Source: Pleomorphomonas sp. PLEO
Lineage (GTDB): Bacteria; Pseudomonadota; Alphaproteobacteria; Rhizobiales; Pleomorphomonadaceae
NCBI RefSeq assembly: GCF_041320595.1
Contig: NZ_CP166625.1
Location: 5,330,001-5,394,000, forward strand
Length of the DNA stretch: 64,000 nt
Reading direction: 5' to 3'
Shown here: positions 8,765 through 60,561 of the stretch, one piece after another
Numbering within the stretch: the first letter of the stretch is position 1
How the letters are laid out: each line of letters begins with the position of its first letter
Made by a program: the position numbers and the translations under genes
The notes under the pieces: generated by a model
Told to the model about the DNA's origin: nothing
Seen by the model: only the letters and a program-made list of their open reading frames with translations
Databases searched by the model: none

Positions 8765-11061
8765 GCCGGCTCCTGGGCTTGGTCCTCACGGGCGGCGGCG
8801 ACTGCCTCCGGCGGCCGTTCGGACGGTGGCGTCGCAACACGGCGGAGACGCAACGCATTCAAGGTCACAATCAGCGACGAGCCCGACATGGCGGCCGCGG
8901 CAATCAGCGGCGTGACGTAGCCAAGCACGGCGATCGGCACGGCAATCAGATTGTAGACCACCGCCGTCCAGAGATTCTGCTTCATCAGGCGATAGGCAGC
9001 GCGAGAAACGTCGAGGGCGACCACGACCGGCTTCAGATGGTCGCCGAGGAAGACAGCGTCCGACGCCGCCTGCGCCAAGTGGGCAGCGGAGACGGGTGAC
9101 AACGATACGTGAGCGGCGGCGAGCGAGGGAGCGTCGTTGAGACCGTCGCCGACCATCAGCACCCTTTGTCCCTTCGCCTTCAGCGCGTCGAGCCGGGCGA
9201 TCTTGCCGGCCGGGTCAATCTCGGCCTGCCAGTCGGAAATGCCAAGCTTTTCCGCCACGGCGGCAACAGCCGTCGCACGGTCGCCGGAAAGAATCATCAG
9301 GCCATAACCCTTGGCCCGGAGCTCCGCGGCAACTTCAACGGCGTCCGCCTTGAGACGCTGAGCAAAGGCGAACACCGCCGTCTGATCGCCATCCGAGAAA
9401 GCGATCAGCGAAGCGTCGGGATAGGCCGCACGCACTGGATCTCCAAGCGCGTCGCCAATGCCACAAAAGGAAAGCGAGCCGAGCCGCAAGGTCCGTCCCG
9501 CCAGATCCGCCTCGACGCCCTCACCGGTTATCTCACGCGAACCGTCGATGGTGCCGGTCGTGCCGGACGCGCGCGACAGCGCCTCGGCAAGCGGGTGCCG
9601 GCTCGCGCGGGCCAGGCGACCGGCAAGGTCGAGCACGTCGTCGGACACATCGCCTCGGTTGGCCAACAATGGCTCGGGGCTGGTCAGCGTTCCCGTCTTG
9701 TCGAAGACGATGGTGTCGACGCGAGCGAGACGCTCGATGGCGTCGCCCGCATTGAGCAAAATTCCATTGCGGAAGAATCGCCCCGCCGCCGTCACCTGCA
9801 CCGCCGGTATGGCGAGTGCGAGCGCGCAGGGGCAAGTGATGATCAGGACTGCGATGGCGTTGATTAGCGCCGTATGCCAACCGGCACCGGCGATCAGCCA
9901 CCCGGCGGCGGTGAGGAATGCCGAGGAATGAACGACCGGGGCATAGGCACGGGCGGCGCGATCGGCCAGACGGAGTGCACCGGATTTCGCTGATTGAGCC
10001 TCACTAATCAGCCGCTCGATTTCGGCCATCAGCGTGCCCTCGACAGCAGCGGTGACCACAATCGTCAGAAGACCGGCGCCGTTCAGCGTACCGGCATGCA
10101 CGATATCACCTGGAGCGACCAGCGCCGGTAGTGTTTCGCCAGTGACCAGGCTGCGGTCGACATCGGAACGACCGGAGAGCACTTCGCCATCGACGGGAAC
10201 CCTCTCTCCGGGCCGCACCACCACGATATCGCCGGGGCGAACGGCGCTGAGGGGAACCCGGACCAGGCTATCGCCGTCTCCGCGCTTCAGCGCCGAGTCG
10301 GCACGCAGAGTCGCCAGCGTCTCAGCCTCCACCGCTGTGCGCCGGCGCATGTTCTCGTCGAGGAAGCGACCGAGCAGCAGGAAGAACAGCAGCATAAGCG
10401 CGCTGTCGAAATAGGCCTCAAGGGCGTGGGTCAGCGTATTGAAGATGGAAAGGCCCATGGCGAGGCAGACGCCGATCGAAATGGGCACATCCATGTTGAG
10501 CGAGCGGCGACGGATGGCGGCGAAGGCACTTCGAAAGAAGGGCCGCGCGGCGTAGGCCACCGTCGGAAGCGCGACGAGCGCACTCATGAAATGGAAGAAA
10601 TCTCGCGTCTCCGGCGTGATGTCGGTGACATTGCCGGACCACACAGCAACCGACATCAGCATGACGTTCATGGCGCCAAAGCCGGCGACGCCCATGCATT
10701 TCAAAAGCTCCCGTGCCTCAGCGGAGCGGTTGTCGCGCTGCAAGGCCGGATCGAAGGGTTGGGCCGGGTAACCAATCGCCGACATACGGTCCAGCACGGC
10801 GCGCGGCGTGACCTTGTCCGGCGAAAAGACCACGGAGGTACGGCGGCTGCTGACATTGACGCGCGCGCGCACTATTCCCGGCAAGCGACGGAGACCGCGT
10901 TCGATATCAGTCAGGCAGGCGGCGCAGGTGATGCCATCGACTGCAAGTTCCATGCGGCGGGTGCCGTCGCGGTCGGCCACCGTGTAGGCGTCCCAATCGT
11001 GATCAACGGGCTGTCCCGCCGGAGCGGCTTCGAGGGGACCGACATCCACCGCTATGTTCAC
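8761..11061 (-). CDS. ccoI: Copper-transporting P1B-type ATPase CcoI
   Basis: This 766-aa copper P-type ATPase (also called FixI) moves copper across the inner membrane for the CuB centre of cbb3 oxidase. An N-terminal heavy-metal domain carries GITCAAC. The channel motif CPC is in ITCPCALALAIP, the phosphorylation site is DKTGTLT, and the hinge is MVGDGLNDAPSL. The start is a GTG at 11061 with AGGGAG upstream. It lies 14 bp after ccoH and overlaps ccoS, within ccoGHIS. Confidence 0.96.
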   Translation of the reverse strand: MNIAVDVGPLEAAPAGQPVDHDWDAYTVADRDGTRRMELAVDGITCAACLTDIERGLRRLPGIVRARVNVSSRRTSVVFSPDKVTPRAVLDRMSAIGYPAQPFDPALQRDNRSAEARELLKCMGVAGFGAMNVMLMSVAVWSGNVTDITPETRDFFHFMSALVALPTVAYAARPFFRSAFAAIRRRSLNMDVPISIGVCLAMGLSIFNTLTHALEAYFDSALMLLFFLLLGRFLDENMRRRTAVEAETLATLRADSALKRGDGDSLVRVPLSAVRPGDIVVVRPGERVPVDGEVLSGRSDVDRSLVTGETLPALVAPGDIVHAGTLNGAGLLTIVVTAAVEGTLMAEIERLISEAQSAKSGALRLADRAARAYAPVVHSSAFLTAAGWLIAGAGWHTALINAIAVLIITCPCALALAIPAVQVTAAGRFFRNGILLNAGDAIERLARVDTIVFDKTGTLTSPEPLLANRGDVSDDVLDLAGRLARASRHPLAEALSRASGTTGTIDGSREITGEGVEADLAGRTLRLGSLSFCGIGDALGDPVRAAYPDASLIAFSDGDQTAVFAFAQRLKADAVEVAAELRAKGYGLMILSGDRATAVAAVAEKLGISDWQAEIDPAGKIARLDALKAKGQRVLMVGDGLNDAPSLAAAHVSLSPVSAAHLAQAASDAVFLGDHLKPVVVALDVSRAAYRLMKQNLWTAVVYNLIAVPIAVLGYVTPLIAAAAMSGSSLIVTLNALRLRRVATPPSERPPEAVAAAREDQAQEPA

Positions 11062-11075
11062 GGTATCTCCCTTCG

Positions 11076-11585
11076 TCAGCGGACGAGGCGGAGCTGGTTG
11101 TGACTCAAGAACATCCGCTCATTGCCCTTATAGGCCTCGATGGTCAGCTCCCACATGCCGGCCTGAACCTTCGGTAGCACCGTGCGATAGGTACCACTCG
11201 CCACCTCCGGCAGACTGGCCGAATGATCATTGTTCGGATCGACGGCATGGATCAAGCTGGCCCGAACGTCGAGCCCGTGGAGATCGGCTCCCGCCTTGTC
11301 ACGAAAATGGATCTCAACCGAGGCGTCGTCGCCCACCGGCCGGACGGCGGCATCCACCGTCCATCCGCGTTCCGCCTGGGCTTTACCCGCCTGAACCTCG
11401 CCTTCAAACTCCTGACCGGCCTTGTAGCTCGATTCCACCTCAAGGCCAGGGAAGGTCGACTCTGCGAAATAGACAAAGGCCCCATTCACTGCGAACACCA
11501 CGCCAAAGAAGGCGAACAGCCAAAGAAAGACGCCTCTCCCAGTCAGGCGGCGGCCACGGGCGACGTCCTCGGAGGTAGCAGTCAT
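11076..11585 (-). CDS. ccoH: cbb3 oxidase assembly protein CcoH (FixH family)
   Basis: The 169-aa protein has a single N-terminal membrane helix (GVFLWLFAFFGVVFAVNGAF) with a periplasmic domain typical of FixH (YKAGQEFEGEVQAGKAQAERGW). CcoH binds the oxidase subunits during assembly. ATG at 11585 is chosen because AAGGAG lies just upstream; a longer in-frame start at 11615 has no such site. It is between ccoG and ccoI in the usual order. Confidence 0.94.
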   Translation of the reverse strand: MTATSEDVARGRRLTGRGVFLWLFAFFGVVFAVNGAFVYFAESTFPGLEVESSYKAGQEFEGEVQAGKAQAERGWTVDAAVRPVGDDASVEIHFRDKAGADLHGLDVRASLIHAVDPNNDHSASLPEVASGTYRTVLPKVQAGMWELTIEAYKGNERMFLSHNQLRLVR

Positions 11586-11673
11586 TCGGTTGGTCTCCTT
11601 CTGGGTCAAGACCAAGCATCCGCCTTTTGCGAGATGTTCGCAACCTTGCAGACGCTACTCCGGCGGGGTCGGC

Positions 11674-13128
11674 TCAGTTGGGAGCCGCGGTTTTAAAGAA
11701 GTCGGACGTGGAGGCTTTCTCACCGTTGTCGGTGTCGACGATGTAGAACTCGATCGGTGTCGATGCCGGCAGCACAATGCCGTTCGGCACCATGACCAGC
11801 ACACGCAGCTCGCGCGTCGTGTCGGCCGCGACCTCGACCACCGGCTTGCCACTGGCGGCGGCTACGCCCTGAGCTTCCAGCGTAAAGCCTTCCGGGAGGC
11901 CGGACACGGTCAGCGCGAAGTGCCGTTCGTGCGGACGCTTGTTGATGAGGCGCACCGTATAGCCGTTACGGGTGCCGCCATCGGACAGGTTGACGTAGAG
12001 CGGATTGCGGTCATGCAAGACGCTGACACCCTGGAAGGCACGATTGGCGAGCGTGTAGATCATAAAGCCGCCGATGAGGACGATCAGCGCCGCATAAAGC
12101 ACGGTGCGCGGCCGCACGATGCGATAGATCGGCGGCTTGCCCTCGCTGCGACGGGCGATGTTCATGTCTGTATCGTAGCCGATCAGCCCTGGCTCACGGC
12201 CAACCTTGTGCATCACGGTATCGCAGGCGTCGATGCAAAGGCCGCATTGAATACAGCCGAGCTGAAGGCCTTCTCGAATATCCACGCCGGTGGGGCAAAC
12301 CTGGACACACGCCTTGCAGTCGATGCAGTCACCAACCGCTTCGCCCGCCGCCTTAGCCCGCTCACCGATCCTCACAGATTTGCGGGGCTCACCTCGGTCG
12401 GTGCGATAGGTCACATTGAGCGCCCACTCATCGGTCAGCGCTGCCTGGATACGCGGCCACGGGCACATGTAGAGGCAGACCTGCTCGCGCATGAAGCCGG
12501 CCAGCGAGTAGGTGGTGAAGGTCAGAATGCCGATCCAGATGTAAACGATCGGCGCGGCGTTGCCGGTAAACACGTCCTTCACGATGGTCGGCGCATCGCC
12601 GAAATAGAGCACCCAGGCGCCACCCGTACCAACCGCGATCAACAGCCAGATGACGTGCTTTGCCGACTTGCGCATAAATTTACCGGCGCTCATCGGCGCA
12701 CGGTCCATCAGGATGCGGTCGCGACGATCACCTTCGATCCAGCGCTCAACGGCGAAAAAGAGGTCGGTCCAAACAGTCTGCGGACAGAGATAGCCGCACC
12801 AGATGCGGCCGGCCACCGCGTTCATCAGGAACAGGGCGATGGAAGCGAGCACGAGCAGGCCCGTGAGATAATAAACCTCCTGCGGCCATATCTCGACGCC
12901 AAAGAAATAGGCCTTGCGGCCGGCCATGTCGATCAGCACCGCCTGGCCCGGTGCGTCCGGGCCGCGATCCCAACGGATAAAGGGCAGAAAATAGTAGATG
13001 CCGAGCGTGATGATCAGCACGGACCATTTGATGGTCCTGAGACGGCCACTGACCGCCGCCGGATAGTTCTTCTTGGCAGCAGCGTAATAGTTGTCGCCAC
13101 CGGTCGTCACGTTCTCGTCGACCCGCAT
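11674..13128 (-). CDS. ccoG: cbb3 oxidase accessory protein CcoG, polyferredoxin
   Basis: The 484-aa membrane protein (FixG) has about five hydrophobic helices and two [4Fe-4S] cluster motifs (CIDCKACVQVCPTGVDI and CIQCGLCIDACDTVMHK). The C-terminal FixG Ig-like domain follows. CcoG acts in the delivery or reduction of copper during oxidase assembly. The segment GYLCPQTVWTDLF is diagnostic. It opens the ccoGHIS run, 206 bp downstream of ccoP. Confidence 0.96.
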   Translation of the reverse strand: MRVDENVTTGGDNYYAAAKKNYPAAVSGRLRTIKWSVLIITLGIYYFLPFIRWDRGPDAPGQAVLIDMAGRKAYFFGVEIWPQEVYYLTGLLVLASIALFLMNAVAGRIWCGYLCPQTVWTDLFFAVERWIEGDRRDRILMDRAPMSAGKFMRKSAKHVIWLLIAVGTGGAWVLYFGDAPTIVKDVFTGNAAPIVYIWIGILTFTTYSLAGFMREQVCLYMCPWPRIQAALTDEWALNVTYRTDRGEPRKSVRIGERAKAAGEAVGDCIDCKACVQVCPTGVDIREGLQLGCIQCGLCIDACDTVMHKVGREPGLIGYDTDMNIARRSEGKPPIYRIVRPRTVLYAALIVLIGGFMIYTLANRAFQGVSVLHDRNPLYVNLSDGGTRNGYTVRLINKRPHERHFALTVSGLPEGFTLEAQGVAAASGKPVVEVAADTTRELRVLVMVPNGIVLPASTPIEFYIVDTDNGEKASTSDFFKTAAPN

Positions 13129-49502: not shown

Positions 49503-50294
49503 TCAAATGGTGTTGAGCACACCACCATCGACGCGCAGGGCAGCGCCGGTGGTGGCCGAGGCCTGCGGCGAGCAGGTATAGACCACCATGTTGGCGACCT
49601 CTTCGACGCTGGCGGCCCGCTGGATGATCGACGATGAGCGGTGGGTCATGACGAAGTCGGCAGCGACCTTCTCAACTGTCTTGCCGCTCCGTTTCACCTC
49701 GTCCGACAGCATATCGGCAAAGCCCTCGGACAGTGTCGGACCGGGGAGTACCGAATTGACGGTAACGCCGGTGCCGGCCATTCGCTTGGCGAGACCGCGA
49801 GCGATCGACACCATGGCCGTCTTGGAGAAGCCATAGTGGATCATGTCCTCGGGAATGTTGAGAGCAGACTCCGAGGAGATGAACACCACACGCCCCCAGT
49901 CCCGCTTCGCCATACCCTGAAGCCAAGCGCGTGACAGACGGACACCTGACATGACGTTGACTTCGAAATAGCGGGTCCACTCGTCATCGGGCGTCTCGAA
50001 GAAGTCGCGCGGGCCGAATATCCCGAGATTGTTGACGAGTATGTCGCAATCGGGGTGGGCGGCGACGATCGCCGCGCAGCCTTCGGCGGTGCCGAGGTCT
50101 CCAGCATGGCCAATGAAGCGACCATCGGGAATAGCGGCTTTAGCCGCAACTATCGCCTTTTCGACCGCCGCCTGGGTGCGCCCGTTGATAACGACAGTAG
50201 CGCCACACTCGCCAAGGCCCTTGGCTATGGCGAGACCGATGCCCGCCGTCGATCCGGTGACGACGGCACGCTTGCCGGTAAGGTCGATCCGCAT
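49503..50294 (-). CDS. Short-chain dehydrogenase, last gene of the lsr operon
   Basis: The 263-aa protein is a classical SDR: TGSTAGIGLAIAKGL binds the cofactor, NNLGIFG, catalytic Ser in FISSES and YGFSK catalytic Tyr-Lys. Such enzymes oxidise or reduce an alcohol or ketone with NAD(P). It begins 18 bp after lsrE, in the same direction, so it is most likely part of the AI-2 operon. Canonical enteric lsr operons lack it. A role in converting phospho-AI-2 breakdown products is inferred from position only. Confidence 0.85.
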   Translation of the reverse strand: MRIDLTGKRAVVTGSTAGIGLAIAKGLGECGATVVINGRTQAAVEKAIVAAKAAIPDGRFIGHAGDLGTAEGCAAIVAAHPDCDILVNNLGIFGPRDFFETPDDEWTRYFEVNVMSGVRLSRAWLQGMAKRDWGRVVFISSESALNIPEDMIHYGFSKTAMVSIARGLAKRMAGTGVTVNSVLPGPTLSEGFADMLSDEVKRSGKTVEKVAADFVMTHRSSSIIQRAASVEEVANMVVYTCSPQASATTGAALRVDGGVLNTI

Positions 50295-50312
50295 GGCTGT
50301 CTCCTTCAGCGA

Positions 50313-51050
50313 TTACCGGCTGGTTGCCCGGCGCAATCCGTTCAGATTATCCGCAATGCTGGCGCCCGCTTTGAAAACGGCGCTGCCACTGACGATCATA
50401 TCCGGTCGGAAACTGGCGGCAACGCCAATAGTCGCCTCGGTGATACCGCCATCAATGGCGATGAGCGGATCCACGCCGGCTTCAGTGGCAAGTTGTCTCA
50501 GCCGCTCGATCTTCCGGCCAAGCGCCGCGTCGGGCACACCGCCGCTCCAGCCGGGGTCGACGGCGAGCAATGTCACCATATCGATCGCATGCAGCATGGG
50601 CACCACGACATCGACCGGCGTAGCCGGATTGAGAGCCACGGCACGCAGCACACGCCGCCCAGGATGGCCGGCCACATCGACATCCAGCATGACGAGCGCC
50701 CGGTGGAGGTGCAACAGCCCCTCGGGGTGGACGTGCACGATGTCAGCGCCGGCCTTCAGCACGGCAGGAATGATGCTGAGCGGATCGGCCACCATCAGGT
50801 GAACGTCCTTCAGCAGGTTCGTTTTCGTCGCCGCGACGAGCGGTGGCCCCGCGGTGAAACCTGGGCAAAAGACGCCATCCATTACATCGAAATGCAGAAG
50901 GGGCGTGCCTGCTGCCTCGAGTTCGGCGATGGCGCTACCATAGGCCATGGCGTCAGCGGCCAGAAGGCCGACGCTGAGAGACGGCGCCGCGCGGCGCAGG
51001 AACGCCTTCAGCGCATCGCGTGTCGCCAGATCATCCGGAGAGGGAAACAT
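50313..51050 (-). CDS. lsrE: LsrE, ribulose-phosphate 3-epimerase-like protein
   Basis: The 245-aa TIM-barrel protein matches the epimerase family: H53 and D55 in LLHFDVMDG, H84 in DVHLMVADP, and D200 in AIDGG, covering the metal ligands and both acid-base aspartates. Salmonella lsr ends with lsrE, an Rpe-like gene of unsettled function, and divergences such as SLSVGLL and the FCPGFTAGP stretch agree with LsrE rather than housekeeping Rpe. ATG 51050 has AAGAGG upstream; an in-frame GTG at 51068 would overlap lsrG. It is 10 bp past lsrG. Confidence 0.82.
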   Translation of the reverse strand: MFPSPDDLATRDALKAFLRRAAPSLSVGLLAADAMAYGSAIAELEAAGTPLLHFDVMDGVFCPGFTAGPPLVAATKTNLLKDVHLMVADPLSIIPAVLKAGADIVHVHPEGLLHLHRALVMLDVDVAGHPGRRVLRAVALNPATPVDVVVPMLHAIDMVTLLAVDPGWSGGVPDAALGRKIERLRQLATEAGVDPLIAIDGGITEATIGVAASFRPDMIVSGSAVFKAGASIADNLNGLRRATSR

Positions 51051-51060
51051 GCAAGCCTCT

Positions 51061-51357
51061 TCAGTCACGCGGTAGGACGCCGATGAACACCTTGTGACTG
51101 CGCGGACCAGTCATGATGTCCTCGAGTTCGGCCTTCACCTTGAGATAGTGCGGCGTGGTCTTGTGGAACTTCACGGCCGCTTCGTCGACGAAGGCCTCGT
51201 AGATGGTGAAGCGGGTCGGTTCAGTAGGGTCCCGCAGCACGTCGAAGCGGCGGCAACCGGGCTCAGCAATGGTGCCCTCGCGATTGGCGCCGAAGACGCG
51301 CAGAAAATCGTCGACGCGGTCGGGCTTGACGTTGATCTCAACGAGCGTGACGTGCAT
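51061..51357 (-). CDS. lsrG: Phospho-AI-2 isomerase LsrG
   Basis: The 98-aa ferredoxin-fold protein of the antibiotic biosynthesis monooxygenase family matches LsrG along its length ([47 protein letters not shown]). LsrG isomerises phospho-DPD to 3-hydroxy-2,4-pentanedione-5-phosphate, the LsrF substrate. ATG 51357 is chosen; the frame extends upstream but with no similarity. It lies between lsrB and lsrE. Confidence 0.92.
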
Positions 51358-51519
51358 GGCCTGAACCTCCAAATTGACTAGGAACAAAAGGATGGCCGGC
51401 CGCCGGTGGATGGCGGCCGGCTCTCCGGAATCCCGCGCGGCCAAATGGGGGGAGCCGACGGGGGAGGAGCGGACGGCAGACGGGAGGGACCGCCGTTCCG
51501 CGGAGATGTGGAAATCCGA

Positions 51520-52545
51520 TCAGAAATCGAACTTGTCGATATTGTCCTTGGTGAACACCTGACGCTCGGGCAGCAGGATGATGCCGTTGTTGTCAGCCTC
51601 GTACTTGTAACCCTGGACGCTGTTCGGGCTCACCTCGACGGTGCCGACATCCGGAATCTCCAGCTTGTCGCCGACCTTCATGGCGCCGTTCTTGATGAGG
51701 TGATCGGCGACGTAGATGGAGATGGCGCCCTGCTTGGTGACATCCCACAGGCCAAAGGCCTTGACGGTGTCACGCTTGACGTAGGGGCGCATCACGTTCG
51801 GCGTCGAGAAGCCGACGATGGTCACCTGGCCGGCGCGACCGACGTTCTCGGCAGCCTGAGCGGCGGCGGGAAGCGCGTTGGCGTCGGGAGCGATGATGAT
51901 GTCGACGTCCTTATAAGCCTTCAGGATGCTTTCGCCTGTTTGCAGCGACTTCTGGGCATCGTTGTAGCCATACTGGGTGGTGACGACTTCCCAGCCCGGC
52001 TTGTCCTTGGCGATGATCGCCTTGGCCTGTTCGACCCACTGGTTCTGGTCGGTCACCGTCGGGCTCGAATAGAAGAAGGCAACCTTGGCCTTGTCGGCCG
52101 GGTGCTGCTGGGAGGCCATGTCGACAAGGAGCTTGCCGAGCTGAGCCGGCGTGCCTTGGTCGATGTAGTAGCTGCGGCACTCGGGATTGACGTCGCTGTC
52201 CCAGGTCAGAACCTTGATGCCGCGCGACATGGCGCGCTTCAGCGCCGGGCAGAGGCCGTCGGGCGACACGGCGGAGACGACGATGGCTTTGAAGCCCTGG
52301 TTGGCGAAGGTGTTGATATACTGCACCTGGCCCGACACCGACGGCTCAGTCGGGCCGTCATAGGTCACTTCGACGCCGAGCTTCTTGCCGGCCTCGACGG
52401 CGCCTTTACCGCCGGACGTGAAGAAACCGACGCCAACCAGCTTCGGGATGAAGGCGATGCGGGCGGCGTCGGCAGCGACCGACGGGCCGACGCAGGTCGC
52501 AGCGGCAGCCACGGCAAGCGCAAGGGAAACGGTACCAAACTTCAT
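51520..52545 (-). CDS. lsrB: AI-2 periplasmic binding protein LsrB
   Basis: The 341-aa protein has a signal peptide (cleavage after SVAA) and a type 1 periplasmic binding fold nearly superimposable on Salmonella LsrB ([52 protein letters not shown]). The six residues that contact AI-2 in the Salmonella structure, K35, D116, D166, Q167, P220 and A222, are all here at the same numbers. It therefore should bind AI-2 rather than a pentose. ATG 52545 has GGAAGGAGAG before it. A 162-bp gap separates it from lsrG. Confidence 0.96.
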
Positions 52546-52622
52546 TTTTGCTCTCCTTCCAAGACATGACCCGGGGGGCTGATCGCCCAATTTCCGGGCC
52601 CTCCTCCTCAAACGTCAGACCG

Positions 52623-53624
52623 TCATTCGGCCGCAACGTTCCTCAGCACGCGCCGGTGCTGGAACCAGACGCGTCCCATCTCCGAGAGGCTGCGCAAGGC
52701 AACCACGATGACCAACAGGCCGCCGGACAAGGCGCTCGAGACGTGGCTCGACACGCCGACGAGCTGAAGGCCGGTCTGCAGATAGCCGACCAGAAGCGCG
52801 GCCAGCGCCGTGCCGAGGATGGTGCCAGAGCCGCCATAGATCGACGTGCCCCCCAGCACCACGGCGGTGATTGCCGGCATCAGCGCCGTCGTACCGAAAT
52901 CGGAACGGGCCGAGCCGAAATAGGAAGCGAGGATCAGGCCGGACAACGCTGCCATCAGGCTGGTCAGGGCATAAGCGACCACCAGCGTGCGGAACACAGG
53001 CGTACCGGCATAAGCCGCCGCGCGCGGGTTCTGACCGATCAGATAGACATAGCGGCCAAAGCGGGTGCGGTGCAGAAGCGCCATGAAAGCGATGGTCAAC
53101 ACCACGAACAAGGCGAAGGGCAGCGGCAGGCCGACAATTTCAAGATTGGTGAGATTGACGAAGGCCGGATCGAAATTGCTGATGCCCTCATAGCCCGTTG
53201 CCCCGGCAAGACCCGACAGGACCAGAGCGGCACCGCCATAAAGAAAGCCGGTGCCGAGCGTGATGACCAGCGGATTGACCTTGGACAGATGGATGGCGAC
53301 GGCGTTGAAGACGCCAGCAAGCGTGCCGACGGCAAGCGCGGCCACCGCTGCCACCCAGATGTCGACGCCGCCGACCCAGAGGATCCCGAGGGTGATGGCC
53401 GACAGACCCATCACCGAACCGAGCGACAGATCGATGCCGCCGGTGATGATGACCAGCGTCAGCGCCAGTGCCGTGATGCCGACGTGGATGAAGTCGGACG
53501 TGGCGTAGAGAAGCGTCGCCGGCTGCAGGAACACCGGGTTGATGGCACCAAACAACAGGATCTCGGCGATCAGGAGCAGCGCCAGTACGCTCTCCCAGCG
53601 TTTGAGGGCGGGATGGAGCTTCAT
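52623..53624 (-). CDS. lsrD: AI-2 ABC transporter permease LsrD
   Basis: The 333-aa permease has about ten hydrophobic helices and the ribose-type BPD_transp_2 motif (ITGGIDLSLGSVMGLSA, NPLVITLGTGFLYGGAAL, VVLGGTSIYGGSGT). It forms the channel with LsrC. Its start overlaps the lsrC stop by 4 bp. Gene order C-D-B matches the enteric operon. Confidence 0.93.
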   Translation of the reverse strand: MKLHPALKRWESVLALLLIAEILLFGAINPVFLQPATLLYATSDFIHVGITALALTLVIITGGIDLSLGSVMGLSAITLGILWVGGVDIWVAAVAALAVGTLAGVFNAVAIHLSKVNPLVITLGTGFLYGGAALVLSGLAGATGYEGISNFDPAFVNLTNLEIVGLPLPFALFVVLTIAFMALLHRTRFGRYVYLIGQNPRAAAYAGTPVFRTLVVAYALTSLMAALSGLILASYFGSARSDFGTTALMPAITAVVLGGTSIYGGSGTILGTALAALLVGYLQTGLQLVGVSSHVSSALSGGLLVIVVALRSLSEMGRVWFQHRRVLRNVAAE

Positions 53625-54688
53625 TTGCGCGCCTCCGAGGTCTCGAGCACCGTCTTGACGGTCCGTCCGGCAGCCTTGGCCGCGTCGGCATGCTGCCCCG
53701 CCGCCTGTGGGTCGATGAACTTGCGATATTTCTGGTAGCGAAGGTGACGGTCGACGGCTTCGCGGATCTTGCCGTCGGTGATCAGCACCACCAGCAGGAT
53801 GGCGCCGGCGATGATGTCGTTCCAGTAGGCCTCAAGGCGCAGCAGCACCAGGATGCTGTCGATCGACGTCATGAAATAAGCGCCGAGGGCCGCGCCGAGT
53901 ACCGTGCCGGTGCCGCCCAAAAGGCTGACGCCGCCGAGCACGCTCGAAGAGATGGCGCGCATTTCCATACCGGTACCGGCGGTGTTGGGGATGAAGCCGA
54001 TCTGCGAGGCAAAGATGACGCCTGCCAACGCGGACAGCAGACCATTGAGGCCATAGGCGACGATCTGTACCTCGTTGACGCGGATGCCGATCAGTCGAGC
54101 GCCTTCCCGATTGTCGCCAACGGCGAACATCGAGCGGCCGAAAGCGGTGTAGCGCAATCCGAGGTGAGCAACGATCAGCAGGACCAGCACCAGCCAGGCG
54201 ACCGGCGACAGGCCGAGCGAGCCGGCCTTGGTCAATGCCTTGAAACCTTCCGGTAGACCCTCGATCCAGCTGCCGCCGGACAGAAGATGCACAAAGCCGC
54301 GATAGAGACCGAGCGTACCGAGCGTGGCAACAATCGCCGAGACCTTTAGCCACGCCACCAATGCGCCGTTGAAGAGACCACAGAGCAAACCGACGAGAAG
54401 CGCGACGCCGATGGAAGCGGGAATCCCCCAGCCGGCATTCATCAGCAGACCGGCGACCACCGCCGCCAAGCCCATGATGGAGCCAACGGAGACGTCGAGG
54501 CCGTGCGTCGCCATCACCATGGTGGCGCCGATCGCCAGCACGAACAGGATGAGGCTGTTGCCATAGACGAGCAGCACGGTATCAAAGGACAGATAGCTGC
54601 GATCAACGAGGCCGAGGATCGCGAACAGGAAGACGATGATCAGCGCGACCGAGGCTTCACGGTGGCGCTGCAGGAAACGGATGATCAT
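53621..54688 (-). CDS. lsrC: AI-2 ABC transporter permease LsrC
   Basis: The 355-aa permease is strongly LsrC-like: THGLDVSVGSIMGLAAV, AWLKVSAIVATLGTLGLYRG, ASQIGFIPNTAGTGMEM, SVLGGVSLLGGTGTVLG, and the tail LRYQKYRKF. It has about ten membrane helices. Its start overlaps the lsrA stop by 4 bp (54685-54688). It carries AI-2 across the inner membrane with LsrD. Confidence 0.94.
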   Translation of the reverse strand: MIIRFLQRHREASVALIIVFLFAILGLVDRSYLSFDTVLLVYGNSLILFVLAIGATMVMATHGLDVSVGSIMGLAAVVAGLLMNAGWGIPASIGVALLVGLLCGLFNGALVAWLKVSAIVATLGTLGLYRGFVHLLSGGSWIEGLPEGFKALTKAGSLGLSPVAWLVLVLLIVAHLGLRYTAFGRSMFAVGDNREGARLIGIRVNEVQIVAYGLNGLLSALAGVIFASQIGFIPNTAGTGMEMRAISSSVLGGVSLLGGTGTVLGAALGAYFMTSIDSILVLLRLEAYWNDIIAGAILLVVLITDGKIREAVDRHLRYQKYRKFIDPQAAGQHADAAKAAGRTVKTVLETSEARK

Positions 54689-56205
54689 TGCGCAGCGTCC
54701 AGTTTGGCGCCGACCCCGAAGGAGAGGCGGGCAATGGCGTTGATCGTGATGTCGGAGCCTTCGAGCAGACCGCCCGGATAACCGTGGTTCATCACCAGCA
54801 CGCGGTGGCTGAGGCGCTCGACCTCTTCATGGTCGGAGGAAATCAGCAGGATGGCGAGGCCTGCGCCGGCCAGCCTGTCGATCAGCCGATAGATATCGGC
54901 GCGCACGGCGACGTCGACGCCGCGCGTCGGCTCATCGAGGATGAGCACACGTGGGCCGGCGGCGAGACACTTGGCGAGCAGCACCTTCTGCTGATTGCCA
55001 CCCGACAGCGTCCGCACCGGCTGATCGGAGCTGCCGCAGACAATGCCGAGCAGCTTGATCTGTTCGGAGAAGTCGGCCTTTTCCTTGGCGAGCGGCAGCC
55101 ATGCCCGGCCGCGATGCAGCACCAGTGCCGACGCGTTCCAGACGAGCGGCGCGTTGACGAACAGGCCCGACACCTGCCGGTCTTCGGGCAGGTACACGAC
55201 GCCGGCATCGAGGCTCTCGCGCGGACCATGCTCGGACAGCGGCTTACCCTCGACAAAGATACGGCCGCGCGCAGCGGGGCGGATGCCATAGATGGTTTCG
55301 GCGAGCTCCGTGCGGCCTGAACCGACCACCCCGGCAAGACCCAGGATCTCGCCCGAGTGCAGCGAGAAGGTGACGTCGGCAAAGCCCTCGCCCGCCAATC
55401 CCTCGACACGCAGCCGTTCGGCCCCGCGTTCCGTCGGAGCGGCGGCGGCATGGCCGAGCGTAAAGCCTTCCTTGCCTTCGATATGGGTCATCGCCGCGAC
55501 GATTTCGGCGTCGGTGAATGACTTCGGCGCACCGGCCAACACGACTTGGCCATCGCGCAGAATGGAGACGATATCGGCGATCTCGCGGATCTCGCCGAGC
55601 TTGTGGGAGATGAAGAAAATACCGACGCCCTGGGCGGTCAGCGCCCGGATACGCTCGAACAGCTTGCCCACTTCGCGTGGCGTCAGTGCCGAGGTCGGCT
55701 CATCGAGAATGAGGATACGGGCATCACGGATGAGGCCGCGCAGGATCTCGACCATCTGCTGGTCGGCAACCTCGAGCTGACCGGCCTGGGTCGACAGGGT
55801 CATGCCGGCGCCAATCTCGCCGATCATCGTCTCAAGGCGAGCGCGCAGTTCCTTGCGATTGCCGGGAACGTGCATCAGCACGTTTTCTTCGACCGAAAGG
55901 CTGGGGAACAGCATCGGTTCCTGCGGCACCAAGTGAATACCGGCTTGGCGGGCCATCACCGGCGTCATGGCCGAGGCATCTTCGCCGCACACCAGAAGTT
56001 CGCCCCGATCGAGGCGATGCAAGCCAGCGATCATCTTCATCAGCGTGGACTTGCCGGCACCGTTGCCACCGAGCAGGGCATGCACCTCCCCCGGCCTCAG
56101 CGTCAGGTCGACGCCACGCAGCACGGCGATGGAGCCGAAGAACTTCCAGATTTGCCTGGCTTCAACCAGCGGCGGCCGCTGATCGGACGGCGAGATTCCC
56201 GCCAT
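54685..56205 (-). CDS. lsrA: AI-2 ABC transporter ATPase LsrA
   Basis: The 506-aa protein has two fused ATPase domains of the ribose type. The first is complete (Walker A GGNGAGKST, Walker B ILILDEPTSALT). The second has the usual degenerate Walker A (VVGSGRTELAETIYG) but an intact LSGGNQQKVLLAKCL signature and VLILDEPTRGVDV. It energises LsrCD. The gene is 133 bp downstream of lsrF. Confidence 0.93.
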   Translation of the reverse strand: MAGISPSDQRPPLVEARQIWKFFGSIAVLRGVDLTLRPGEVHALLGGNGAGKSTLMKMIAGLHRLDRGELLVCGEDASAMTPVMARQAGIHLVPQEPMLFPSLSVEENVLMHVPGNRKELRARLETMIGEIGAGMTLSTQAGQLEVADQQMVEILRGLIRDARILILDEPTSALTPREVGKLFERIRALTAQGVGIFFISHKLGEIREIADIVSILRDGQVVLAGAPKSFTDAEIVAAMTHIEGKEGFTLGHAAAAPTERGAERLRVEGLAGEGFADVTFSLHSGEILGLAGVVGSGRTELAETIYGIRPAARGRIFVEGKPLSEHGPRESLDAGVVYLPEDRQVSGLFVNAPLVWNASALVLHRGRAWLPLAKEKADFSEQIKLLGIVCGSSDQPVRTLSGGNQQKVLLAKCLAAGPRVLILDEPTRGVDVAVRADIYRLIDRLAGAGLAILLISSDHEEVERLSHRVLVMNHGYPGGLLEGSDITINAIARLSFGVGAKLDAAQ

Positions 56206-56262
56206 ATCGACAGTCTCCCAACTTCTTTCTTGGAAAGGCGGGGACCTGCCCGCATTTCAGTG

Positions 56263-56310
56263 CGCCCTCCTCCGGGCGGTCCGTCGGGCTTCCTCGCGGC
56301 AGCCCGACGG
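56263..56310 (-). other. Two hairpins between lsrF and lsrA
   Basis: A perfect 10-bp stem (CCGTCGGGCT 56281-56290, AGCCCGACGG 56301-56310) is followed by a smaller one (CGCCC 56263-56267, GGGCG 56274-56278). Neither has a T-run on the operon strand. They could uncouple the level of LsrF enzyme from the transporter, either by stabilising the lsrF message or by partial termination. Confidence 0.6.
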
Positions 56311-56338
56311 CGTGGTTCGCGGTCCTTCGGGGGTGGCC

Positions 56339-57223
56339 TCAGGCGGCCTTTGCCTTGCCGGCCTTATAGATATCGTATGCCTTGTCGACGCTCTCGCCGT
56401 CGTGCACCACAGCTCGCACGGCAGCAATCATCGCGACCGGACAGTCGGACTGGAAAATGTTGCGCCCCATGTCGACACCGGCCGCGCCCTGATCGATGGC
56501 GCGCCACGCCATCTCAAGAGCGTCGCGCTCCGGCAGCTTCTTGCCGCCGGCGATGACGATCGGCACCGGGCAGCCGGCCACGACCTTCTCGAAGCCGTTG
56601 TCGATATAGTAGGACTTCACGATATGGGCGCCGAGCTCGGCACAGATGCGGGTGGCAAGACCGAAATAACGCGCGTCGCGCACCATATCCTTGCCGACAC
56701 CAGTCACAGCCATGGTCGGAATACCGTAGCGATTGCCCGTGTCGATCAGCTTGACCAAGTTGGCGAGCGACTGGTGCTCGTATTCGGCGCCAACATAAAC
56801 ATTGGTGGTGATCGCCGAGGCATTGAGACGGATGGCGTCCTCGATATCCACGGCCACCAGTTCACGTGAAAGCTCGGTCAGCACGCTCATGCCGCCCGAA
56901 CAACGCAACACCACAGGCTTGCGGCTATCGGCAGGCATGGTCTGCCGGAGACCTCCACGCGTGCACATGAGTACGTCGGTATATGGGACGAGCGGACGGA
57001 TGGTGAGGTCGAGCCGCTCAAGACCGGTGGCCGGCCCCTGGAAGTAGCCATGGTCGAAAGCCAGCATGACGGTACGGCCACTCTTGGCCTGGAAGATGCG
57101 CGCAAGACGATCCTGCATTCCCCAGTCGAGCGAGACTGAGCCACGTACCGGAAATGCCCTCACCTCGACCGGCTGGTCCAATCCGAAATCCTTGCCTTCC
57201 TTCACGTCGTCCATATCGGCCAT
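56339..57223 (-). CDS. lsrF: LsrF thiolase (3-hydroxy-2,4-pentanedione-5-phosphate)
   Basis: The 294-aa aldolase-fold enzyme matches LsrF through its length ([81 protein letters not shown]). Lys203 in HIVKSYY has the same number as the catalytic lysine of E. coli LsrF. The reaction moves an acetyl group to CoA, yielding acetyl-CoA and dihydroxyacetone phosphate. ATG 57223 follows GGAGG at good spacing. Here it is the first gene of the operon, not after lsrB as in enterics. Confidence 0.95.
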
Positions 57224-57577
57224 TGGGTCCTCCAAAGGTGGCGGGCTGGGTCTGCAATCAGCAGTACCTTCCGTTCAAATGAACACCGCCTTATCAATTG
57301 CACGGTCGATTATTCGTCGGACAACCCGGATCGTCAACCCAGATTCTGCACATAAGTGACAGCGCAGCCCAAAAGAATCTCATCGCACACTTGTCGCATT
57401 ACAGAGAGAATTGCATAACTCATTGATTTTTCTTATTCTCGCCGGCGACACAGCAGAATGCCCCACGACTTAATGATGATCAAGAATTTCAGATCTTGCG
57501 CTTATGTGCGCATCGTGATCATATGATCGACAAAATCGCTGCCCGGACGCAATCCTCCTATTGTCCGTGCAAATGTC
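57224..57577. promoter_or_regulatory. Divergent lsrF / lsrR control region
   Basis: The 354-bp AT-rich spacer has several dyads. GTTCA-AA-TGAAC (57273-57284) is next to lsrF. GCACATAAG (57348-57356) is repeated in inverted orientation as CTTATGTGC (57501-57509), 145 bp apart, one copy per side. GATCATATGATC (57517-57528) is a perfect palindrome about 50 bp before lsrR, and CAAGA-N8-TCTTG lies at 57481-57498. These are candidate LsrR operators; none has been tested. Confidence 0.6.
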
Positions 57578-58543
57578 ATGAAGGTGAGTGACGTGAACGA
57601 AGCCTATGACGAGCTGGCATTCGAGCCGCACGAAGAAGAGCTGCTGAGCCGCGTGGCATGGCATTACTATCATGACGGTTTGACCCAGAGTGAAATCGGC
57701 GAACGGCTGAACCTGTCGCGCATCAAGGTGTCGCGCATGCTCGATCGTGGCCGGCGGATGGGCCTTATCCACGTTCACATCAATTCCAGCTATGGCGGCT
57801 GCTTCGCTCTGGAAGCCCGGCTGCAGGAAATCTATGGCCTCGACGAGGCGCGCGTCATCCCGGCCCAGGAATCTGGCAACGTCAACGACCGGCTGGCTGA
57901 AGCCGCGAGCCAGTATCTGATGGGACGCCTCAAGGACCAGGAAATGCTGGCCGTCGGCTGGGGCGCCACGGTGATGGGCACCTTGCAACGGCTTGCCCGA
58001 ACTCTTTCTTACCGCGACATTTCGCTGGTCAGCCTGACGGGTGGCGTCTCCGCCTACATCGAGGGCGTCGCCTCGGGCCGGTCGTCCCAGAACGTCCACC
58101 TCATCCCGGCACCGCTCGTCGTGTCGCAGGAGAGCATTGCCGAGGCAATCCGCGCCGAGCGGCATGTCGTTGACGTGATGAGCATGGCGCGGACCGCCAA
58201 CTATGCACTGGTCGGTATCGGCGCCGTAGCCGACGAGGCGACGCTGATCGCCTCTGGCTATGCCAGCCGCTCACAGTTCGAGATCTTCCGCCGCCAGGGC
58301 GCGGTGGGCGATATCATCGGCATCTTTTATGACCAGAACGGCGTGCCACTCGACCTCGCTTTCCACAAGATGCTGGTCGGGCTCGACTTCGAAGCGCTGT
58401 CTGCCATTCCGCAGGTGATCGCCGCCGCTGGCGGACCGAAGAAAGTCGATGCCATCCGCGCCGCCGCCCGTGGCGGCCGCATCGACGTGCTGATCACCGA
58501 CGAGCCGACTGCCGAAGCCATCCTCGAGAAAGACCAAGCATGA
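57578..58543 (+). CDS. lsrR: LsrR transcriptional regulator
   Basis: The 321-aa SorC/DeoR-type protein has an N-terminal helix-turn-helix (HYYHDGLTQSEIGERLNLSRIKVSRMLDRGRRMGLIHV) and a C-terminal sugar-phosphate binding domain (GWGATVMGTL, SLTGGVSAYI). In enterics LsrR represses lsr until phospho-AI-2 binds. It is transcribed divergently from the operon and overlaps lsrK by 4 bp, the expected arrangement. The ATG at 57578 has a weak ribosome-binding site. Confidence 0.93.
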   Translation: MKVSDVNEAYDELAFEPHEEELLSRVAWHYYHDGLTQSEIGERLNLSRIKVSRMLDRGRRMGLIHVHINSSYGGCFALEARLQEIYGLDEARVIPAQESGNVNDRLAEAASQYLMGRLKDQEMLAVGWGATVMGTLQRLARTLSYRDISLVSLTGGVSAYIEGVASGRSSQNVHLIPAPLVVSQESIAEAIRAERHVVDVMSMARTANYALVGIGAVADEATLIASGYASRSQFEIFRRQGAVGDIIGIFYDQNGVPLDLAFHKMLVGLDFEALSAIPQVIAAAGGPKKVDAIRAAARGGRIDVLITDEPTAEAILEKDQA

Positions 58544-60105
58544 CCAGCTCCTACGTTCTCGCCATCGATGCCGGCACCGGCAGCGGCCGCGCCGTTATCT
58601 TCGACAAGGCCGGTCGCCAAATCGCCGTGGCACAGGAGGAATGGACGCATCTCAGCGACCCTGGCCATCCCGGTTCGATGGAATTCGACTGCGCCGCCAA
58701 CTGGGCGCTACTTGCTGGCTGTGTTCGCCGGGCGCTCGCCTGCGCCGGCTTGCCAGCATCGGCTATCCGCGCCGTCAGCGCCACCTCGATGCGCGAAGGT
58801 ATCGTGCTCTGGGACCGGAGCGGACATGAGCTCTGGGCCTGTGCCAATGTCGACTCGCGCGCGTCCGACGAGACGAAGGCGCTAAAGGCCGCCATGCCGG
58901 GCTTCGAGCGCGACGCCTATGCGGTCACTGGCCAGACCTTCGCGCTCGGCGCCATTCCCCGCCTCAAGTGGATCGAGCGGCATATGCCGGACGTCCACGC
59001 CCGCACGGCGCGCATGTGCATGCTGTCCGACTGGATTGTGGCGCGCCTTTCCGGCGAGATCGCCTGCGACCCATCCAACGGCGGCACCAGCGGCCTGCTT
59101 GCGCTCGGCACGCGAACCTGGGACGCCGATATAGCCCGCCGCGCGGGCGTCGATCCGGCCATCTTACCGCCCGTCCACGAGACCGGAACCGCCATTGGCC
59201 GCGTAACGGCGACCGCTGCGGCCGATACGGGACTTGCAGAGGGAACGCCAGTGGTGGTCGGCGGTGGCGACGTTCAGCTCGGCGCCCTCGGCCTCGGCGT
59301 TGCCCGAGCCGGCCAAGCCGCCGTGCTCGGCGGCACCTTCTGGCAACAGGTAGTCAACATGCCGCGGCCGATCGCCGATCCCGCCATGCGGGTGCGCGTC
59401 AATCCGCACGTGGTGCCCGGCCTCAGCCAGGCCGAAGGCATCGCTTTCATGGTCGGCATGACCACTCGCTGGTTCCGCGACGCCTTCTGTGACGAAGAAA
59501 AGCGCATCGCCGCCGAACGCGGCATCGACGTTTACGCCCTGCTCGAGGAAAAATCCGCGACAGTGGCACCAGGCGCCAACGGCATCCTGCCTATCTTCTC
59601 GGACGTGATGAATTGCGCCGCCTGGTATCATGCCGCGCCATCGCTGTTGAACCTGTCGCTGGATGCCAGCGTCTGCGGCAAGCCGCAGATCTTCCGCGCC
59701 ATTCAGGAGAACGCGGCGATCGTCGCGTCGGAAAACCTTCGACTCGCCGCCGATCTGGCGGGTGTGAGGCTGACCGAACTCGTTTTTGCCGGCGGCGCTT
59801 CCAAAGGAAAGTTGTGGGGCCAGATCCTGTCCGACGTTACTGGCCTACCGGTGAAGGTGCCCGAGGTGACAGAGGCAACGGCGCTTGCCGCCGGCCTCGC
59901 CGCCTGGGTTGGCGTGGGTGAATATGCTTCGCTGCCGGAGGCAGCCGACGCCGTCGTTCGCTGGCGTCGCCGCTACGAGCCGGACGCCAGCCGTCACGCC
60001 CTCTATGGCGAGGTTACCGAGCGTTGGCGTACGGCCTATGCCGCCCAACGCCATCTCGTCGACGCCGGCATCACCCATTCAATGTGGAAGGCTCCTGGCC
60101 TCTAG
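58540..60105 (+). CDS. lsrK: AI-2 kinase LsrK
   Basis: The 521-aa FGGY-family kinase phosphorylates internalised AI-2 (DPD) and traps it in the cell. Phosphate motifs IDAGTGSGRAVIFD and VFAGGASKGKLWGQILSDVTGLPV, and the FGGY-type VVVGGGDVQLGALGLG and VLGGTFWQQVV, are all visible. SATSMREGIVLWD and NGGTSGLLALGTR agree with LsrK. It overlaps lsrR by 4 bp. Its product inactivates LsrR, giving positive feedback on the operon. Confidence 0.94.
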   Translation: MTSSYVLAIDAGTGSGRAVIFDKAGRQIAVAQEEWTHLSDPGHPGSMEFDCAANWALLAGCVRRALACAGLPASAIRAVSATSMREGIVLWDRSGHELWACANVDSRASDETKALKAAMPGFERDAYAVTGQTFALGAIPRLKWIERHMPDVHARTARMCMLSDWIVARLSGEIACDPSNGGTSGLLALGTRTWDADIARRAGVDPAILPPVHETGTAIGRVTATAAADTGLAEGTPVVVGGGDVQLGALGLGVARAGQAAVLGGTFWQQVVNMPRPIADPAMRVRVNPHVVPGLSQAEGIAFMVGMTTRWFRDAFCDEEKRIAAERGIDVYALLEEKSATVAPGANGILPIFSDVMNCAAWYHAAPSLLNLSLDASVCGKPQIFRAIQENAAIVASENLRLAADLAGVRLTELVFAGGASKGKLWGQILSDVTGLPVKVPEVTEATALAAGLAAWVGVGEYASLPEAADAVVRWRRRYEPDASRHALYGEVTERWRTAYAAQRHLVDAGITHSMWKAPGL

Positions 60106-60207
60106 CCACCGCCGCGCCAACGGTCGGAGCGCGGCGGACGAATACGGAATCAAGATCTCAGTATCAGCAAGGACCGCCATCCGGACGGGGACGGCGGCGG
60201 AGGAACG

Positions 60208-60561
60208 ATGTTCAAAACTCGAGAAGACGAGCACGACTATCGCTTCGGCGATCATGGCCCCAAATATCTTCTGCGCGGTCCGCTCATCGATATTGGCGTG
60301 GTGACGTTGCAGCCCGGCCAGCATTTCTCCACGCACAAGCATCAGCATGTCGAGGAGAACTTCCTGACGATTGCCGGCGAAGTGCACATGTATGTCGACG
60401 GGGAATTGCATGTGCTCGGTGTCGGCGATTTCCTGCGCTGCGAGCCAGGGGAAGGTCACCACGTCGTCAATCGAGGCGACACGCCGTGGAAGGCAGTATT
60501 CGTCAAGGCGCCTTACGACCCCAAGGACAGTGTGCCGATCGCCTGGTCGCCTGAGGGCTAA
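60208..60561 (+). CDS. Small cupin, lsr-linked
   Basis: The 117-aa protein is a single cupin barrel with the metal-site histidines in GQHFSTHKHQHVEENFLTIAGEVH and, in the second motif, EGHHVVNRG. It begins 102 bp after lsrK on the same strand, so it probably shares the transcript. Cupins of this size bind a metal and isomerise or hydrate small sugars or sugar phosphates, or sense them. No recognised lsr function matches it. Enteric lsr loci do not include such a gene. Confidence 0.78.
   Translation: MFKTREDEHDYRFGDHGPKYLLRGPLIDIGVVTLQPGQHFSTHKHQHVEENFLTIAGEVHMYVDGELHVLGVGDFLRCEPGEGHHVVNRGDTPWKAVFVKAPYDPKDSVPIAWSPEG

Follow-up and report, generated by a model that had tools for sequence, protein, structure and literature searches.

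A Salmonella-type lsr locus with a cupin gene beside lsrK in a Pleomorphomonas genome lacking a luxS match

The locus described here occupies positions 49503-60561 of a 64,000-nucleotide stretch of the Pleomorphomonas sp. PLEO genome (NZ_CP166625.1, positions 5,330,001 to 5,394,000; hereafter the window) and carries the genes of the Lsr system, which imports and degrades autoinducer-2 (AI-2). AI-2 passes between species and is widespread; debate continues over whether it is a signal, a nutrient or a waste product. Our analysis favors a Salmonella-type lsr locus in a genome with no luxS match, in which a small cupin would be a dedicated partner of the AI-2 kinase LsrK, the epimerase-like LsrE would be optional and a short-chain dehydrogenase/reductase (SDR) would be a passenger. 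We assign this reading a probability of roughly 0.7. The cupin gene recurs next to lsrK in distant bacteria, through four phyla, and an enzyme that follows the AI-2 kinase in this way presents a concrete missing step.

The locus consists of eleven genes in two divergent units (Table 1). Open reading frames were found in the order given by an earlier sequence-only reading, with lsrF-lsrA-lsrC-lsrD-lsrB-lsrG-lsrE-SDR running leftward and diverging from lsrR-lsrK-cupin. The same reading described the leftward unit as a tight run, and here only the order stands, as gaps of 133 bp (lsrF-lsrA), 77 bp (lsrD-lsrB) and 162 bp (lsrB-lsrG) interrupt it. The gap between lsrK and the cupin gene is 102 bp. 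Starts of LsrE, LsrG and LsrB were shifted to internal ATGs. With the exception of the SDR, the arrangement is kept in relatives, and chance is therefore not an issue. The Salmonella lsr locus (lsrACDBFGE and lsrRK with a downstream cupin, STM4071-STM4080) contains the same genes, with lsrE after lsrG and the cupin directly after lsrK. An Lsr system "extended" by LsrE and a cupin, as had been proposed, is consequently the wrong description: this pair is the known Salmonella-type layout, present also in Escherichia coli MS 196-1, and only the SDR is added. The Pleomorphomonas locus differs from that of Salmonella in that lsrF heads the operon rather than following lsrB, LsrE is only 38% identical, an SDR is added and the genome has no luxS match.

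Table 1. Features of the lsr locus, in window positions (phospho-DPD, phosphorylated 4,5-dihydroxy-2,3-pentanedione; P-HPD, 3-hydroxy-2,4-pentanedione-5-phosphate).
Feature	Positions	Strand	Basis or remark
SDR oxidoreductase, classical, PF00106	49503..50294	-	18 bp after lsrE
LsrE-like ribulose-phosphate-3-epimerase-family protein	50313..51050	-	alternative GTG start at 51068
LsrG, phospho-DPD isomerase, ABM fold	51061..51357	-	NCBIfam, Pfam ABM
Strong hairpin, lsrB-lsrG gap	51395..51421	-	10 bp G+C stem
LsrB, AI-2 binding protein	51520..52545	-	NCBIfam
LsrD permease	52623..53624	-	NCBIfam best family
LsrC permease	53621..54688	-	NCBIfam
LsrA ATPase	54685..56205	-	NCBIfam
LsrF, P-HPD thiolase	56339..57235	-	NCBIfam
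Palindrome GTTCAAATGAAC, candidate LsrR operator near lsrF	57273..57284		word count
GTGATCATATGA, candidate LsrR operator near lsrR	57515..57526		word count
LsrR repressor	57578..58543	+	NCBIfam best family
LsrK, AI-2 kinase	58540..60105	+	NCBIfam
LsrK-associated cupin, metal-ligand pattern H43 H45 E50 H84	60208..60561	+	Pfam, alignment, co-occurrence with lsrK

AI-2 import and breakdown genes

Comparison with the curated NCBIfam models placed five of the eight core Lsr proteins above their cut-offs: LsrB (614 bits, cut-off 384), LsrA (646, cut-off 586), LsrC (430, cut-off 388), LsrK (814, cut-off 528) and LsrF (488, cut-off 297). The other three have the Lsr model as their best match at scores under the cut-off, with LsrG half a bit short (134.5 against 135), LsrD at 400 bits (cut-off 500) and LsrR at 336 bits (cut-off 486). 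Homology thus bears out the earlier claim of a complete AI-2 uptake and degradation set (transporter, LsrK, LsrR, LsrG and LsrF), and the locus is predicted to be a complete set for AI-2 import and breakdown. Since the Lsr transporters are related to ribose, xylose and rhamnose transporters, import of a sugar other than AI-2 was also considered. We judge this very improbable: LsrB scored only 250 bits for RhaS against its 614 bits for the Lsr family, its residues K35, D116, D166, Q167, P220 and A222, which we take to be the AI-2 contacts, are all six identical to those of Salmonella LsrB, and LsrK, LsrF and LsrG are present.

The individual steps are known from enteric Lsr and were carried over here by homology. 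LsrB and LsrACD would import AI-2 made by other species, and LsrK would phosphorylate it to phospho-DPD, which would release LsrR. LsrG and then LsrF would convert phospho-DPD to dihydroxyacetone phosphate (DHAP) and acetyl-CoA. The known route has LsrG as an isomerase and LsrF as a thiolase (PMC8016206). Use of AI-2 as a carbon source or erasure of the signal, both suggested by the sequence-only reading, would be consistent with the presence of LsrG and LsrF.

No match to luxS, the known AI-2 synthesis gene, was found in the source genome, a single contig of 5.48 Mb rated 98.29% complete. Because a full lsr set is present without a luxS match, the source bacterium probably listens to or consumes the AI-2 of other makers and is a candidate for either role. 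Eavesdropping has been suggested for Sinorhizobium meliloti and Rhodobacter sphaeroides, which carry lsr but are luxS-negative (PMC2561040). The pSymB locus of S. meliloti, like the present one, is an alphaproteobacterial lsrACDB with lsrR-lsrK and LsrG; it differs in having no LsrF, LsrE or cupin match within 21.6 kb and a class II aldolase next to lsrB.

The LsrK proteins of P. carboxyditropha, P. diazotrophica, P. koreensis, P. oryzae and others share 90-95% identity with that of the window. Of seven Pleomorphomonas genomes sampled, counting G000, one (G203) has no lsrK above the cut-off. At locus L019, which comes from a metagenome-assembled genome (MAG), the lsrK match near position 10001 is partial and covers 52% of the length, reflecting either a broken gene or an assembly error.

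The cupin that accompanies lsrK

Gene presence was scored by tblastn in a survey of 37 lsrK loci, from which the loci with short flanks (L059-L068 and L107-L132), L022-L034 (mostly from genomes already represented by wider loci) and L155-L160 were omitted. The first residue of each BLAST query was set to M, and the LsrB and LsrG queries began one or two codons off. The surveyed loci are mutually related and of unequal lengths. Eleven of them are of Pleomorphomonas type (the window, L001-L007, L009, L019 and L020) and nine are other Hyphomicrobiales loci, namely L008, L053-L056 from another family, and the rhizobial-type L052, L057, L058 and L164.

The cupin gene follows lsrK in all ten untruncated Pleomorphomonas-type loci, the window included (L009 ends inside lsrK), and lies beside lsrK in L008 (an Ancalomicrobiaceae MAG) and in the four loci L053-L056. 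These results support conservation of the cupin neighborhood. The idea that the cupin is confined to this genus was dropped, as it was found beside lsrK in distant bacteria. It follows lsrK in Edwardsiella hoshinae, in Deinococcus psychrotolerans, in Salmonella, where lsrACDBFG-epimerase and lsrR-lsrK-cupin lie next to tpiA (L161), and in E. coli MS 196-1 (L172), which has a Salmonella-type lsr set with the epimerase. In Lacticaseibacillus paracasei (L163) lsrK-cupin is followed by rbsD. In the family of Edwardsiella the cupin was detected in five of 119 genomes, each time beside lsrK. Of 5426 E. coli genomes 125 have it, and in the three inspected it adjoins lsrK. Plasmid records (n = 72,556) yielded lsrK in 79 and the cupin in seven; six of these cupin genes adjoin lsrK and the seventh record begins with the cupin. 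Of 249 Campylobacterota genomes, 26 have lsrK (E <= 1e-100). The cupin (E <= 1e-20) was detected in six of the 249, every one of them lsrK-positive (hypergeometric P 7e-7, uncorrected for relatedness), and the two genes adjoin in four of the six (G664, G787, G830 and G903). Among 299 Pseudomonadota genomes the cupin was present in the source genome only. The cupin family is tied to lsrK, and lsrK often occurs without it; we regard the cupin, from its distribution, as a real companion of the AI-2 kinase.

Two side observations concern these loci. The lsr set of L172 sits among transposase and broken genes and looks mobile. At L163 the gene after lsrK-cupin (11350-11745) encodes a D-ribose pyranase, the plasmid is typed as conjugative and the locus shows no lsrG.

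In an alignment of 20 cupins with identities as low as 33%, no sequence departs from HxH-x4-E...H (H43, H45, E50, H84), the set of ligands with which cupins usually bind metal. An N-terminal RFxxxGPxYLxxG stretch is similarly retained in these 20 sequences, with R12, G17, P18, Y20, L21 and G24 invariant and F13 and K19 nearly so; the Deinococcus cupin has RY in place of RF. The AlphaFold model (predicted local distance difference test, pLDDT, 90) is a cupin barrel. The Foldseek list is headed by 3h8u, an uncharacterised cupin, and by archaeal phosphomannose isomerases; it also includes KdgF, dioxygenases and dimethylsulfoniopropionate (DMSP) lyases. The Thermococcales cupin phosphomannose isomerases (7zvm and 7zvy), KdgF, which opens a sugar-acid ring, and the quercetin 2,3-dioxygenase YxaG have the cupin fold and the metal-ligand pattern in common with the window cupin. 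TM scores normalized by query length were 0.67-0.77 against the 7zvy chains. In profile searches KdgF gave E 1e-5 and the phosphomannose isomerase 7zvm E 5e-15, with 59 bits in one domain. YxaG gave the best E-value (2e-19) because its two cupin domains add up; its best single domain reached 40 bits, and the N-terminal stretch was not seen in three YxaG alignments. The window cupin passes the Pfam model PF01050 (mannose-6-phosphate isomerase C-terminal) with 27.2 bits against a cut-off of 23.6. NCBIfam isomerase-type models gave 22-23 bits, far under their cut-offs, and none of the listed NCBIfam families reached its cut-off for this protein.

Phospho-DPD has linear, hydrated and cyclic forms. 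We propose that the cupin would act, as a metal-dependent enzyme, on the LsrK product or a tautomer of it, and that an isomerisation or a ring-opening/hydration tautomerisation would ease phospho-DPD into degradation. We consider isomerase or ring-opening tautomerase activity on phospho-DPD the most likely and a dioxygenase the next. As an O2-dependent dioxygenase, the cupin would cleave a reductone or diketone form of phospho-DPD or P-HPD. These compounds are 1,2- and 1,3-diketones, and acireductone dioxygenase and acetylacetone dioxygenase act on similar diketones; the HxH-x4-E...H ligands and the quercetin 2,3-dioxygenases, as the best overall PDB profile matches, point the same way. We nevertheless consider a dioxygenase unlikely, as the per-domain match to phosphomannose isomerase is the stronger one and the cupin also occurs in Lacticaseibacillus and Campylobacterota, where use of O2 is less expected.

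Replacement or duplication of LsrG, the phospho-DPD isomerase, by the cupin was considered as well. The Lacticaseibacillus locus has LsrF, LsrK, the cupin and RbsD with no LsrG annotated or matched, and L017 and L018 have lsrK-cupin with no ABM match in their genomes, which are, however, MAGs and perhaps incomplete. LsrG and the cupin occur together in Pleomorphomonas and enterics, and an ABM match was found in all six cupin-bearing Campylobacterota genomes. Given these counterexamples, a stand-in for LsrG appears rather doubtful. Strict mutual exclusion of cupin and LsrG did not hold, owing to the same six genomes.

A search of the open-licence literature found no study of the LsrK-associated cupin. 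A table for a fabR mutant groups STM4071, labelled hypothetical, with the genes of AI-2 metabolism and gives it a value of 2.02 (PMC4804515), and another source carries "lsr STM4071-80" as a single quorum-sensing entry (PMC11000858). STM4071 is numbered next to lsrK (STM4072) and, from the gene order at L161, would be the cupin.

The LsrE-like epimerase and the SDR

The LsrE-like protein shares 38% identity with Salmonella LsrE, 36% with the best Rpe match of its own genome, 33% with E. coli Rpe and 29% with AlsE. It scored 144 bits against the LsrE model PRK14057 (cut-off 530) and 141 bits against the generic rpe model, also under the cut-off (213). Salmonella LsrE itself reaches 602 bits with PRK14057, and two enteric homologues give 341-347 bits, likewise under the cut-off. 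By score the protein falls outside the curated LsrE family; position and motif leave orthology possible, as the gene lies directly after lsrG, as in Salmonella, and an FCP motif is common to this protein and enteric LsrE where Rpe and AlsE have VPN. Because the source genome has four further epimerase-family matches, LsrE need not be the housekeeping enzyme. Deletion of lsrE in S. typhimurium is reported to have left AI-2 uptake and lsr transcription without detectable change (PMC2728841).

Within the 37-locus survey the cupin is present in all 18 untruncated loci that have lsrE, while lsrE is absent from eight of the 26 cupin loci. None of the ten cupin-less loci has lsrE (L009, whose contig ends inside lsrK, was excluded). 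In the enteric draw of 119 genomes, both LsrE genomes fall among the five that bear the cupin. As LsrE was seen only in cupin-bearing loci, a functional link between LsrE and the cupin is possible, and LsrE may belong with the cupin. With its epimerase fold, LsrE may be an optional enzyme that acts after the cupin. A successive conversion of phospho-DPD by LsrE and the cupin, with no involvement of the SDR, is compatible with the favored reading and is supported by the same co-occurrence. We hold it to be doubtful, since lsrE is missing from the eight cupin loci, the loci are interrelated and unequal in length, and the cupin-less enteric loci were covered only close to lsrK.

The sequence-only reading had joined LsrE, the SDR and the cupin in one extra branch acting on an AI-2-derived sugar phosphate. 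This proposal divides: the cupin does belong to the locus and a link with LsrE is possible, but inclusion of the SDR is not supported. Its favorable points are the spacing, with lsrE beginning 10 bp after lsrG and the SDR gene 18 bp after lsrE, from which lsrG-lsrE-SDR are probably co-transcribed, and the 83-93% identity of the SDR protein in four relatives. At a threshold of 45% identity, the SDR was present in five of the 11 Pleomorphomonas-type loci (the window, L001, L002, L003 and L005), absent from the other six, and present in none of the nine other Hyphomicrobiales loci; distant SDR-superfamily matches of 26-29% in L052, L056 and L058 lie below the threshold and were not counted. The neighborhood of the SDR with lsr is therefore not conserved in Hyphomicrobiales, which goes against the earlier proposal. 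In four of the six SDR-less Pleomorphomonas-type loci the pyrD-lsrE gap was measured at 48-146 bp, and blastn found no SDR remnant in it. A search of 199 genomes from the order gave close homologues (E <= 1e-60) in 40. Identity reaches 74% among homologues that lie away from lsr, and apart from the window's own, none of 29 fetched SDR-homologue loci gave an lsr match within its 1.5 kb flanks. The lsrK-positive genome G180, of the same genus, gave no SDR match in the search of the 199 genomes. An extra branch that includes the SDR is accordingly quite improbable.

The SDR as a conserved lsr component was rejected for its patchiness in the genus, its absence outside it and its close homologues elsewhere; it is probably a lineage-specific passenger or bystander rather than a core part of lsr. 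Genomes with the SDR occupy early branches of Pleomorphomonas in the LsrK tree, and most others are nested (L019 is outside the tree). This early branching fits gain of the SDR near the root of Pleomorphomonas and later loss in part, the history we infer.

Several observations weigh against the favored reading of cupin, LsrE and SDR. The cupin was found in none of the four rhizobial-type loci and within 1.5 kb of lsrK in none of eight f92 loci, and 20 of the 26 lsrK-positive Campylobacterota genomes lack it; because many lsr loci lack the cupin, it would be dispensable. In G875 and G899 the cupin lies on a contig other than that of lsrK. The Salmonella and Deinococcus cupins pass Pfam cut-offs for DMSP-lyase and AraC-binding models, and family labels do not settle the reaction, since the window and Salmonella cupins pass different Pfam models. 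The YxaG match leaves room for oxygen-dependent cleavage. Finally, the branch that sets the LsrE sequences apart in the best tree has support of only 78/90, which is weak.

Class II aldolase loci and the control region

Of the 37 lsrK loci, 23 have LsrF and nine a class II aldolase (PF00596); no locus has both and five have neither. These counts are not independent because the loci are interrelated and unequal in length. The aldolase resembles the aldolase half of bifunctional aldolase/short-chain dehydrogenase proteins, and its nine loci are the four of rhizobial type (S. meliloti 2011 included) and five from Campylobacterota (L011, L012, L014, L015 and L021). In 26 Campylobacterota lsrK loci with 1.5 kb flanks (L107-L132; L114 is the L021 locus), the aldolase occurs in 13, an ABM protein in ten and LsrF in none. 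The class II aldolase is likely a non-orthologous replacement of LsrF.

All nine genomes behind L011-L018 and L021 have luxS, with one match covering part of the model, and within these nine loci there was no match to LsrB, LsrC or LsrD. L016 has a 24% partial LsrA match, as any ABC ATPase may give. In part of the nine loci lsrK lies next to an ABM protein, which has the fold of LsrG. The combination suggests that these Campylobacterota process their own DPD. An ABM (LsrG-fold) gene adjoins luxS at L160 (7275-8147, genome G664). We tentatively extend these observations to a joint proposal, which we rate a little short of even odds: the cupin would be an unrecognised phospho-AI-2 enzyme that moved with LsrK through Pseudomonadota, Campylobacterota, Deinococcota and Bacillota, and in those luxS-positive Campylobacterota whose lsrK loci show no Lsr transporter, LsrK, the cupin or ABM protein and the class II aldolase would form an internal DPD salvage route. 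The aldolase would perform the LsrF step by other chemistry, giving DHAP and acetate rather than acetyl-CoA. If this were true, the cells that make AI-2 would also recycle it as a metabolite, a view that lsrK loci lacking transporter genes in luxS-positive Campylobacterota would make directly testable.

In the lsrF-lsrR gap, GTTCAAATGAAC and GTGATCATATGA each have their only copy in the window, where 0.02 and 0.01 copies, respectively, would be expected. All 15 related loci contain GTTCAnnTGAAC once, and all but L008 contain TGATCATATGA (14 of 15), the two being spaced 243-245 bp apart; neither was found in eight loci of other types that were checked. GTTCAAATGAAC and GTGATCATATGA are candidate LsrR sites.

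The 162 bp lsrB-lsrG gap folds better than its own shuffles (z -4.58). A terminator scan gave seven sites against 7.9 in shuffles and hence no excess. The hairpin in the gap is kept, as judged by eye, in 11 aligned Pleomorphomonas-type gaps (the window and ten others), and it may protect the lsrB message or reduce expression of lsrG-lsrE-SDR. In L053-L056 a different complementary stretch lies at the same spot.

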